Assembly: GCA_027371845.1 (NCBI GenBank)
Contig: DAHXLD010000005.1
Span: 1 to 32,490, forward strand
From: Candidatus Saccharimonadota bacterium
Lineage (GTDB): Bacteria; Patescibacteriota; Saccharimonadia; Saccharimonadales; UBA4665
DNA: 32,490 nucleotides
Direction: 5' to 3'
Each line of letters starts with the position of its first letter. Position 1 is the first letter of the stretch. The notes beneath the pieces were generated by a model. That model worked only from the letters and a program-made list of their open reading frames with translations. It made no database searches and had not been told where the DNA came from. Both the position numbers and the translations under genes were made by a program. This document shows, piece after piece, positions 2,062 through 6,701 of the stretch.

Positions 2062-2080
2062 GATAACGTTACATGTTATC
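2062..2080 (+). repeat. Inverted repeat GATAAC-N7-GTTATC between fic and the primase-helicase gene
   Basis: Perfect 6-bp arms, ending immediately before an AGAGG Shine-Dalgarno-like sequence (2081-2085). Confidence 0.5.
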
Positions 2081-2093
2081 AGAGGATTTAGCT

Positions 2094-4205
2094 ATGCAGG
2101 CCGACGATAAGATTAAGCTATATCGTTCTTTATTTCGTGGGCGAGATGATGTGTTTGCCAGGAGATGGGACAAAACTGGCGGCTATTTCCCTGACTACAC
2201 CTTCGACTGGAACGAATTCAATGCTTATAAAGCTGTTGGCGGAACTATAAAGGATTTTAAAAATAAACAGTTAACAGCATTAACCGACTCGGTAATCCAT
2301 AAACACTTACTTGGACAGGTCACAATCGGGATTTATCCAATTCTTGAGGATAATACATCCTACTTCCTAGCAGCCGATTTTGATGGCAATAATTGGCTTA
2401 ATGATTGCCTAGCATATCACCAAGGCATGCAAAAAATTGGTCTCGTTTCATATATTGAGCGGTCAAGATCAGGTAACGGTGGTCACGTTTGGGTTTTCTT
2501 TGAGAATGCCTATCCCTGTCACAAATGCCGTACGATCGGGCTGGAAGTTGCGAGAAAAGCACTAGGCCTTTCGCCATTTGATAAAGAGGCTAGTTTCGAC
2601 CGATTGTTCCCAAGCCAAGATGCCATTGCCAAAGGAGGTTTTGGTAACCTGATCGCTTTGCCTTTCCAGGGTAAGTCAGTTAAAAGTGATAATACAATTT
2701 TTATCAATCCTGCAACTGCTGAACCATATGAAGATCAATTTCTAGTACTTAAAAAAATTAAGCGTTACTCAGATAGCGAGCTAGATACTGCCTACAATCT
2801 TGCTATTAACGAATCAGGCCAAGAAACCCTTTCGGTTAAGAGTAAGAAGCTGAAAATTAATGTCGGTCAGAATATTACACTTCAAAAAGCTCAGCTGAGT
2901 GGTCCACTTGTAGGCTTTTTAAAAGAACAACTCAATTTTCTCAATACGGAGTATTTAACAAAGAAACGACTGGGTATATCGATTTATCAAGTGCAAAAGT
3001 ACTTTCGTCTGATAGATGAATCCGATAAAAATATTACACTACCTCGTGGTTTTTTGTCACGGTTGCTCAGATTTCTTTACGAGAACGACATAAAATATGA
3101 TATTAGTTTCGATACACCAAAACTGCCTAAGTGTAGATTTAAAAGTAGTATTGTGCTAAATGAGAATCAAAAGAGTATTGTTGAATCGGCTGAGGCTGAG
3201 AAGCAGGGGGTTATAGTAGCGCCCCCAGGCAGTGGAAAAACTATGATGGGGATGGAGCTGATTGCCAGGCATCAAAGACCAGCATTAATACTAGTACATC
3301 GGAAGCAATTACTGGACCAGTGGGTTGATCGTATACAGACGGATCTAAATATTCCAAAAGCTCATATCGGTAGATTTTCCAGTACAAAAAAGGCTGTTGG
3401 CAAAGAAATCACAGTCGGCCTATTGCAAAGCTTTGCACGCGTCAAAGATTTAGGAGACTATAGGGATAAGTTCGGCACTATTATTGTTGATGAGTGTCAT
3501 CATATACCAGCCAAGACATTTCGTGGGGTTATAGCTAGCCTTAATCCAGAATATTTATACGGGTTAACAGCTACACCAAAACGTAAGCATAATGATGAAC
3601 AGTTAATTTATGTTTATATTGGCGATGTTATCGCTGAAATGCCGACCAAAAACGACGAATCATTCAAGCTTCAGCGCAAATACGATATTGTCATCCGAGA
3701 AACAAATTTGAGTATTCCGTTCAATTGGAAGACCGATCATTTTGATCTGATAGCTAAGGTTATCAGCTATGATACTTCTCGAAACGCCTTAATGATTGGT
3801 GATATTTTAGATCAGGTTAAACTCGGCCGAAAGACATTAGTGCTCAGTGAGCGTAAAGACCATCTAAAAATCTTAGAGCTATATCTTAAAGGACGATGCG
3901 AAACATTAATCTTTACTGGTGATGATTCAAATGCCAGTCGTATATCTAAACTCAAACAGATTGAGGACGGCCATTACCAGGTATTGTTGGCAACTGGTCA
4001 GATTTTCGGCGAGGGTATGAGCATAAAAAACATAGAGTCACTTGTCTTAGCCTTTCCTTTTGTATTCGAGGGGAAGCTAACTCAATACGTAGGGCGTCTC
4101 ATGCACAGCTCAAGCCCCAAAGTTCTGATTGATTATCACGATAATAAAATACCTTTTCTGGACAGGCAGTTCAAAAAGAGAAAACGTGCTTATGACAAGC
4201 TTTGA
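2094..4205 (+). CDS. TOTE-type archaeo-eukaryotic primase (AEP) domain fused to a DEAD/DEAH superfamily 2 helicase
   Basis: AEP motifs FLAADFDG (DxD) and SGNGGHVWVFF (GxH); helicase motifs APPGSGKT, IIVDECHH and GLTATP. The ORF track starts at 2073, but SD AGAGG at 2081-2085 favours ATG 2094 (MQADDKIKLYRSLFRGRDDVFARRW). Confidence 0.85.
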   Translation: MQADDKIKLYRSLFRGRDDVFARRWDKTGGYFPDYTFDWNEFNAYKAVGGTIKDFKNKQLTALTDSVIHKHLLGQVTIGIYPILEDNTSYFLAADFDGNNWLNDCLAYHQGMQKIGLVSYIERSRSGNGGHVWVFFENAYPCHKCRTIGLEVARKALGLSPFDKEASFDRLFPSQDAIAKGGFGNLIALPFQGKSVKSDNTIFINPATAEPYEDQFLVLKKIKRYSDSELDTAYNLAINESGQETLSVKSKKLKINVGQNITLQKAQLSGPLVGFLKEQLNFLNTEYLTKKRLGISIYQVQKYFRLIDESDKNITLPRGFLSRLLRFLYENDIKYDISFDTPKLPKCRFKSSIVLNENQKSIVESAEAEKQGVIVAPPGSGKTMMGMELIARHQRPALILVHRKQLLDQWVDRIQTDLNIPKAHIGRFSSTKKAVGKEITVGLLQSFARVKDLGDYRDKFGTIIVDECHHIPAKTFRGVIASLNPEYLYGLTATPKRKHNDEQLIYVYIGDVIAEMPTKNDESFKLQRKYDIVIRETNLSIPFNWKTDHFDLIAKVISYDTSRNALMIGDILDQVKLGRKTLVLSERKDHLKILELYLKGRCETLIFTGDDSNASRISKLKQIEDGHYQVLLATGQIFGEGMSIKNIESLVLAFPFVFEGKLTQYVGRLMHSSSPKVLIDYHDNKIPFLDRQFKKRKRAYDKL

Positions 4206-4447: not shown

Positions 4448-4754
4448 TGGCTCCGGGGACTGGATTCGAACCAGCGACCTAGTGGTTACACTTATCTCCT
4501 ATTTTCAAAGGAGCGTGGACTATCTCATCATCCTATATTAAAGGATGCAGGGCGCTAATGAAGGATTATTGTTAGGCTCACCTTCTAGTCTCTGAACCTT
4601 CTAGAATCTTTTAACCTAATCCTAGCTTGGCTGCGGATTATCTTATCTAGAATTAGACTTAGACTTCCCGCAATTCACCCTGTTTTTCACTGTTCTGTTA
4701 CCAAAACAGGCTGCATATTTACAGCCACCCGCTCTACCGCTGAGCTACCCCGGA
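4448..4754 (-). tRNA. tRNA-Asn(GUU) interrupted by a group I intron (exons 4721-4754 and 4448-4488)
   Basis: Spliced minus-strand sequence TCCGGGGTAGCTCAGCGGTAGAGCGGGTGGCTGT/TAACCACTAGGTCGCTGGTTCGAATCCAGTCCCCGGAGCCA folds as a full cloverleaf with loop CTGTTAA, anticodon GUU and encoded CCA. Confidence 0.9.
4489..4720 (-). other. Group I intron (232 nt, no ORF) within the tRNA-Asn anticodon
   Basis: Minus-strand elements: IGS GCAGCC (4709-4714) pairs exon GGCUGU with U.G at the splice site; P AATTGCGGGAAG (4664-4675); Q AATCCGCAGCC (4629-4639); R TTCAGAGACTAGA (4584-4596); S GATGAGATAGTCC (4517-4529); terminal omega-G at 4489. Confidence 0.9.
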
Positions 4755-4814
4755 ATATTAAAGAACTAATTTATTCTAACTGCTATAGATTAGATTGTAA
4801 ATAACTAGAGATAA

Positions 4815-5270
4815 TCAGTTTTGTATTTGTCGTCTTATTTGTCTGTTTTCATCTTTAGCCTTTAGAACTTGTCGTTTATCGTATTTCTTTCTTCCTTTTC
4901 CTATCGCTATTTTTAGTTTGATGTATCTACTTTTAGTTAAGATTTCAATAGGTACTATAGTTCTACCAATGTTTTTTGCTTCAATTAAGTTAAGTATCTC
5001 TTTTTTTTTGGCAAGTAGCTTTCTTGGTCGGGTTTGTTCGTTTTCTTCGATAGGAACAGAGCTTGTTCCGTTGATGGTTGCATTAATTAAAAATAGTTCA
5101 TTGTCTTTTGTGGTAACGTAAGCTCCTCTTAGGTCTGCGTGTCCCATTCTTAGGCTTTTAGTTTCGGCTCCTGTAAGATTTATGCCAACAATTAGGCTGT
5201 CTCCAAGTTCATAATCGAATCGAGCCCGTTTGTTAGTTATATTGCCAGTTATCTTCTTTTTCTTAGCCAT
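4815..5270 (-). CDS. smpB: SsrA (tmRNA)-binding protein SmpB
   Basis: Characteristic ITGNITNKRARFDYELGDSLIVGINLTGAETKSLRMGHADLRGAYV and C-terminal GRKKYDKRQ(V)LKAKDENRQIRR. Confidence 0.95.
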   Translation of the reverse strand: MAKKKKITGNITNKRARFDYELGDSLIVGINLTGAETKSLRMGHADLRGAYVTTKDNELFLINATINGTSSVPIEENEQTRPRKLLAKKKEILNLIEAKNIGRTIVPIEILTKSRYIKLKIAIGKGRKKYDKRQVLKAKDENRQIRRQIQN

Positions 5271-5317: not shown

Positions 5318-6701
5318 TCCAACGCAAAATGAGGCTAAAGTAGGGTTCGGTTTCCAACGCAAAATGAGGCTAAACGTAGTATGTGTGGCACTCTGGAGGT
5401 ATGACTACAACCATGGATACCACACATATACCAACAATAATACAAATGGCAGATTATGTCAGGGGCAGTAGTGCTGTTAATCTTCATTGCCAGGACAGAA
5501 AGGAAGCTTATAGCTATATAAAACGAGTACTTGTTGCTCATTGCTATATTAATCTAAAAAAGCCAGTAAAAAGCACCCTAAGGCAGTACTTAATGGCGGT
5601 AACAGGATACTCTAAGGCTCAAATAGATAGACTCATAGGCCAATATGTTACTAGTGGAGAAATTACTTTAGCTAATCGTACTCAACCAACTTTCGAAGGT
5701 AAATATTTACCAGAGGACATATTAGAACTAGCTAGGATTGATGAGATCCATGAAGACTTAAGTGGACCAGCTATGTGCCGAATACTAAAACGAGAATATG
5801 AGGTATTTGGTAATATGACCTGTATTCGTTTAAAAGATCTTAGTGCCTCTCATTTATATAACCTCAGAAAGACTAATTGTTACCAACGTCGACATATGAA
5901 GTTTACTAAAACCAAACCATCTCCAGTTAAGATTGGAGAACGGACTAAACCTAATAATCAAGGGAAGCCAGGTTTCCTTCGAGTAGACAGTGTTCATCAG
6001 GGAGATAAAGATAAAATGAAAGGCGTTTATCATATTAATCTAATTGATGAAGTTACCCAGTGGGAAGTGGTGGTAGTAGTAGAAGGAATTAGTGAACAAT
6101 TCATGATCCCAGCTTTAAAATCAGCCTTAGATTTATTTCCTTTTGTTATTCTTAACTTTCATGCAGATAATGGTTCTGAGTATATCAACCAGAGAGTAGC
6201 TGAACTACTAGAAAGAATGCTAGTCAAATTAACTAAAAGCCGTCCTTATCATAGTGGAGATAATGGACTAGTAGAAACCAAGAACGGATCAATTATCCGT
6301 AAAGCTTTAGGTTGGATACATATACCTAAGACATCAGATAATGTTGAGGCAATTAACCAGTGGTATAGAGCCTGGTTTGTTCCTTATCTTAACTTTCATA
6401 GGCCTTGTGGCTATAGAGTTACGGATATTAGTCCTAAAGGTAAAAGAACTCATAAATATCCAAAGGATGGTTATATGATGCCCTATCAGAAATTAAAGTC
6501 ATTATCTAATGCTAGTCAATATCTTAAACCAGGATTAAGTTTTGAACTCTTAGATATCCAAGCGTATGCTATGAGTGATACCCAATGGGCTGAATCTATG
6601 AATATAGAAAAGGCTATCATGTGGGAATCAATACAGTTTTAATAATTCAAATGAGTTGCCATATTTATCTATCTACTTAAGCCTCATTTAAGAATTGGAA
6701 A
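5318..6701 (+). mobile_element. Insertion sequence encoding a DDE (rve-fold) transposase with imperfect terminal inverted repeats
   Basis: Left tccaacgcaaaatgaggctaaa at 5318-5339 and again at 5353-5374; right end revcomp tccaattcttaaatgaggcttaa at about 6677-6699; transposase between. Exact outer boundary and target-site duplication are not resolved. Confidence 0.75.
5383..6642 (+). CDS. IS transposase, integrase catalytic core (rve/DDE)
   Basis: FLRVDSVHQGD...HINLIDEVTQWEVVV...NFHADNGSEYINQ...NGLVETKNGSIIRK gives a D-D-E arrangement. Start uncertain: GTG 5383, or ATG 5401 / 5413 after ggaggt. Confidence 0.88.
   Translation: MWHSGGMTTTMDTTHIPTIIQMADYVRGSSAVNLHCQDRKEAYSYIKRVLVAHCYINLKKPVKSTLRQYLMAVTGYSKAQIDRLIGQYVTSGEITLANRTQPTFEGKYLPEDILELARIDEIHEDLSGPAMCRILKREYEVFGNMTCIRLKDLSASHLYNLRKTNCYQRRHMKFTKTKPSPVKIGERTKPNNQGKPGFLRVDSVHQGDKDKMKGVYHINLIDEVTQWEVVVVVEGISEQFMIPALKSALDLFPFVILNFHADNGSEYINQRVAELLERMLVKLTKSRPYHSGDNGLVETKNGSIIRKALGWIHIPKTSDNVEAINQWYRAWFVPYLNFHRPCGYRVTDISPKGKRTHKYPKDGYMMPYQKLKSLSNASQYLKPGLSFELLDIQAYAMSDTQWAESMNIEKAIMWESIQF

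Follow-up and report, generated by a model that had tools for sequence, protein, structure and literature searches.

Among bacterial tRNA genes, group I introns are known from those for tRNA-Leu(UAA) and tRNA-fMet (both in cyanobacteria), tRNA-Ile(CAU) (Azoarcus) and tRNA-Arg(CCU) (Agrobacterium). Bacterial tRNA introns of this kind have long been recognized, as set out in the available part of a review (PMC3984707); the accessible text of the tRNAscan-SE 2.0 paper (PMC8450103) notes fMet and Ile2 genes that were missed owing to group I introns, and that of a study of circular CPR genomes (PMC8172020) reports tRNAs with such introns. Additionally, a 2025 preprint by Nakagawa, cited in the part of PMC12641178 available to us, deals with a novel group I insertion site in tRNA genes of Patescibacteria. 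In a literature search of partial coverage, no description of a bacterial tRNA-Asn site was found.

The window analyzed here, i.e. the whole 32,490-nucleotide stretch of DNA from a Candidatus Saccharimonadota bacterium, contains a tRNA-Asn(GUU) gene on the minus strand (4754–4448), with the anticodon interrupted by a 232-nt group I intron. An earlier note, made from the letters alone, had proposed precisely this arrangement, down to the insertion between anticodon positions 35 and 36, the halves that form a complete cloverleaf once the intron is removed, the U.G pair in P1, the elements of P4 and P7 and the G that closes the intron. The proposal holds to the base, and the sequence, a search against Rfam and the intron mode of ARAGORN bear it out. 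The Rfam group I model RF00028 matches positions 4730–4496 over its full length (1–253) with 93.6 bits (E 4.5e-23), compared with a curated cut-off of 50 bits; this is the sole Rfam match in the window, and the 530-kb genome assembly has one match to this model. With introns allowed, ARAGORN calls tRNA-Asn(gtt) and places a 232-nt intron behind what it counts as position 35. In standard numbering, the splice site lies between U35 and U36, so that the anticodon loop is divided into C32 U33 G34 U35 and U36 A37 A38; the predicted spliced exon junction reads ...GGCUGUUAACC..., and every cloverleaf pair is kept in the joined exons (100% paired). Run without introns, ARAGORN finds no tRNA across the window, and the Rfam tRNA model does not report the split gene either, in keeping with the expectation that tRNA callers would miss it. 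The features of the locus are collected in Table 1.

Table 1. Features of the split tRNA-Asn locus (coordinates in the window).
Feature	Position	Strand	Evidence
smpB	4815..5270	-	PF01668, E 2.5e-40
Promoter-like TTTACA-17-TAGAAT upstream of the tRNA	4773..4801	-	10/12 matches; shuffles average 1.1 sites
5' exon of tRNA-Asn(GUU): acceptor 5' strand, D arm, anticodon stem 5' strand, C32 U33 G34 U35	4721..4754	-	Sequence; ARAGORN intron mode; cloverleaf pairs 100% kept
P1 exon strand GGCUGU, final U in the splice-site U.G	4721..4726	-	U.G kept in 15/15 sequences with both sides
Group I intron, 232 nt, without ORF; omega-G is the last base (4489)	4489..4720	-	RF00028, 93.6 bits
Internal guide sequence GCAGCC	4709..4714	-	GCAGC invariant in the alignment
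P3 5' strand CAGGG (partner 4552-4548)	4678..4682	-	100% paired; two-sided changes in 3/5 pairs
P4 5' strand UGCGG (partner 4636-4632)	4668..4672	-	100% paired; two-sided changes in 3/5 pairs
P7 5' strand with bulged A (partner 4522-4517)	4586..4592	-	100% paired, invariant
P7.1 hairpin	4560..4585	-	Two-sided changes in 4/5 pairs
P8 hairpin	4529..4547	-	Alignment pair count
P9 hairpin with GAAA loop	4496..4513	-	Alignment pair count
3' exon of tRNA-Asn: U36 A37 A38, anticodon stem 3' strand, T arm, acceptor 3' strand, G73, encoded CCA	4448..4488	-	Sequence; ARAGORN intron mode; cloverleaf pairs

The core sequence of the intron fits RF00028, and its secondary structure bears the hallmarks of group I: the P1 U.G pair (U34.G41 in gene numbering), the P3–P7 pseudoknot, the P4–P6 core, omega-G and P9.0. 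The elements P1 to P9 were placed on the window sequence and their pairs were counted over an alignment of 20 homologues, which was built from sequence only with the structure taken from its first row, a procedure that favors the percentage of paired cells and not the two-sided changes. In this alignment, which lends P1–P9 strong support, 94.0% of the cells are paired compared with 79.0% in shuffled alignments (none of the 500 shuffles is as good), 41 pairs show two-sided changes (228 cells compared with 62.7 in shuffles), and the covariation score is 0.461 compared with 0.161; when the partners are slid by 1–3 columns, only 33–45% of the cells are paired. P6 is 100% paired and P9.0 97.5% paired; P7 is invariant, so that its support comes from conservation rather than covariation, and a P10 pairing, when checked across the homologues, shows no conservation. 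The P7.1 loop CCUA (4576–4573) pairs with the P6 loop UAGG (4618–4615), an interaction that the 20-sequence alignment supports, with one of the loop pairs being A-U in 11 sequences and G-C in eight; this pairing may resemble P11 of subgroup IA introns. The split gene, with structure and covariation common to 20 homologues, is far beyond chance.

Introns of the same family occur patchily in Saccharimonadales and other Patescibacteria. BLAST searches with the gene detect the intron in 13 of the 94 genomes from the family of the window, and at least 51 of these 94 genomes carry an uninterrupted tRNA-Asn, with the two halves side by side. In a congener (G002), the uninterrupted gene adjoins smpB, as the filled one does in the window. 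Across the order, strong group I matches occur in 49 of the 392 genomes, and tRNA context assigns the intron to tRNA-Asn in at least 22 of the 392. A search of named genomes with a pattern for the 3' junction yielded 24 records, each a split tRNA-Asn on inspection, mostly from Saccharibacteria, along with Magasanikbacteria, Berkelbacteria and other Patescibacteria; the same pattern is found in eight of the 384 sampled genomes of the phylum, and the five new ones are tRNA-Asn genes as well. No matches were detected in viral contigs or phage records, and carriage of the intron by phages was rejected on these grounds. In the intron tree, six of the 28 inner branches are well supported, and given this weak support, only a single close pair (G078/G079) is used and no transfers are claimed from the tree. 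Two hits that carry the labels Anaerolineaceae (L144) and Nitrospirae (L153) resemble, in their exons, Saccharibacteria (UBA6223, L141) or a Patescibacteria record (L147); these hits may be misbinned and are left out of the evidence for other phyla. A putative further host, not named as a member of Patescibacteria, is a MAG labelled Candidatus Subteraquimicrobium (L152), with a tRNA-Asn interrupted at the same site and an intron core that is just 53% identical to that of the window.

Other group I introns are found in the order as well. A second set of tRNA introns, detected with ARAGORN, resides in a tRNA with a CAU anticodon, apparently at U33/C34, and is ~600 nt long in most cases (L091, L121, L123, L125, L127, L128, L131). 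Several genomes from the family of the window also have 23S rRNA group I introns, often several in tandem (L005, L014, L015, L019 and others). These contrast with the statement, in the accessible part of a study of CPR rRNA introns (PMC11270868), that short insertions without group I introns make up nearly all of those in Saccharibacteria rRNA; the contigs in question may be misbinned.

The copy in the window has only 6 nt ahead of the guide sequence and, in agreement with the earlier note, no homing endonuclease ORF; HNH ORFs are encoded in relatives only. Four of these (G069, G078, G110, G050) carry ORFs of 103–106 amino acids in the P1 loop, past the 5' splice site and ahead of the guide, with the motifs CxxC, LDLHH or LDFHH, and CANCHRE, and the end of the HNH ORF overlaps the guide sequence. 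The scores with the Pfam HNH model are weak, and one of the two ORFs tested reaches the cut-off (22.7 compared with 21.4 bits). G079, the sister of the ORF-bearing G078 in the intron tree (support 99/92; cores 87.8% identical), has just 38 nt ahead of the guide, a short P1 loop that would be explained most simply by deletion of the ORF. In another relative (G130), the ORF is broken and the terminal G is lost, and because of this decay, not every copy of the intron need be active.

In relatives, smpB adjoins copies of tRNA-Asn that have the intron as well as copies that lack it, and a similar promoter-like element lies upstream of the tRNA in two of the loci (L002 and L003). Downstream of the tRNA, on the same strand, there is a single-copy stretch that resembles a tRNA T arm (GGTTCGAGCCCGG, 4368–4351), with no Rfam matches. 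On the plus strand, a gene for a protein with Fic and winged-helix domains (1054–2040) is followed by one for a TOTE-type primase-helicase (AEP-TOTE, ResIII; 2073–4205), and this pair, possibly a defence or mobile module, ends ~240 bases from the 3' end of the tRNA. Divergently from smpB, the window encodes an integrase-core (rve) protein (5383–6642, plus strand), likely a transposase.

The possible dependence of the cell on splicing, which the earlier note had raised for the case that no other tRNA-Asn(GUU) gene is present, hinges on whether another tRNA-Asn exists. The genome of the window has 26 other tRNAs and none of these is for Asn; the assembly is 66% complete, so that another tRNA-Asn could sit in the missing part. 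The 26 genomes searched with a pattern for uninterrupted tRNA-Asn gave 30 matches that were examined with ARAGORN, and the remaining matches were judged by eye to lack a tRNA-Asn sequence. ARAGORN confirms an uninterrupted gene only in two intron-less genomes (G002 and G009), with the same sequence matched in a third (G007); this pattern search found none in the 22 intron-bearing genomes, five of which (G095, G110, G192, G206 and G244) are 97–99% complete. The lack of an uninterrupted gene in all 22 suggests that splicing is probably essential in intron-bearing genomes. The incompleteness of the assembly, together with the decayed terminal G and ORF in G130, speaks for the opposite reading, that the gene is a pseudogene or the intron dead and that a tRNA-Asn from the unassembled third of the genome reads the Asn codons. 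This is very improbable, given that all tRNA pairs and all core pairs of P3, P4, P6 and P7 are intact, that CCA is encoded and a promoter-like element is present, and that the five nearly complete genomes have no uninterrupted gene.

The identity of the tRNA could be questioned as well: intron-mode ARAGORN labels many relatives (G012, G023, G031 and others) Thr(tgt) i(33), i.e. tRNA-Thr(UGU) with the intron after U33, the kind of mis-call that had been expected of tRNA callers. With a cut after U33, neither the conserved U.G pair nor the terminal G would have a role, and in orthologues without an intron, located at the same smpB-linked site, the sequence is CTGTTAA, with the anticodon GUU; the U.G, the terminal G and these orthologues all demand a cut at 35/36, and the threonine reading, hardly credible on these grounds, was rejected. 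For a protein-spliced (bulge-helix-bulge) or other non-ribozyme insertion, we found no supporting points; the complete group I core with covariation speaks against it, archaeal-type tRNA introns are not known from bacteria, and its likelihood is practically negligible.

Accordingly weighted, the reading in which we have strong confidence is that of a tRNA-Asn(GUU) gene with a group I intron that represents, within a family of homing introns of Saccharimonadales and further Patescibacteria, the stage lacking an endonuclease. The intron almost certainly removes itself by self-splicing, a mechanism that homology makes well founded. Before splicing, P1 would form between GGCUGU at the exon end and the guide GCAGCC, placing the U.G at the junction; a guanosine bound in P7 would attack after U35, and the 3' OH of U35 would then attack after omega-G (4489) and ligate U35 to U36, with the anticodon stem also holding the exons. 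In intact members of the family, the HNH protein encoded in the P1 loop probably cut uninterrupted tRNA-Asn genes.

The tRNA for every AAU and AAC codon seems to depend on ribozyme splicing in streamlined bacteria, including those with near-complete genomes. With empty alleles and filled ones, and with forms that have an ORF and forms that lack it, all at a single locus, the cycle in which homing introns are gained and lost can be traced. Furthermore, because gene callers miss or mislabel the split tRNA, bias enters the tRNA inventories of Patescibacteria and the estimates of how complete their genomes are. It is conceivable, and no more than a tentative proposal, that a homing-intron family fixed on position 35/36 of tRNA-Asn(GUU) in several classes of Patescibacteria, in which HNH-bearing copies coexist with ORF-remnant, mini and decaying ones and the tRNA-type core has gained a pairing between the P6 and P7.1 loops, is so far undescribed.

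Like the known tRNA group I introns of bacteria, the intron of the window is a small ribozyme in the anticodon loop that matches RF00028, with an exon U in the U.G pair, a terminal G and exons held by the anticodon stem. It differs from these in the host, tRNA-Asn(GUU) cut at 35/36, and, in many of its homologues, in the P7.1 hairpin with its pairing to the P6 loop; the Azoarcus intron is not known to have such a pairing. The introns of the 2025 preprint, compared by its title alone, share the intron kind, the phylum and the tRNA hosts. The group I introns in CPR rRNA, as covered by the accessible part of PMC11270868, come from the same radiation and likewise include ORF-bearing and ORF-less forms; however, they reside in rRNA genes and mostly encode LAGLIDADG enzymes, whereas the tRNA introns of the window family have HNH ORFs. 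The mechanism is that known from bacterial tRNA group I introns, and the case of the window is a well-supported further example, with an intron that recurs in relatives, in part together with an ORF for a homing enzyme, and with a site that is empty in others.
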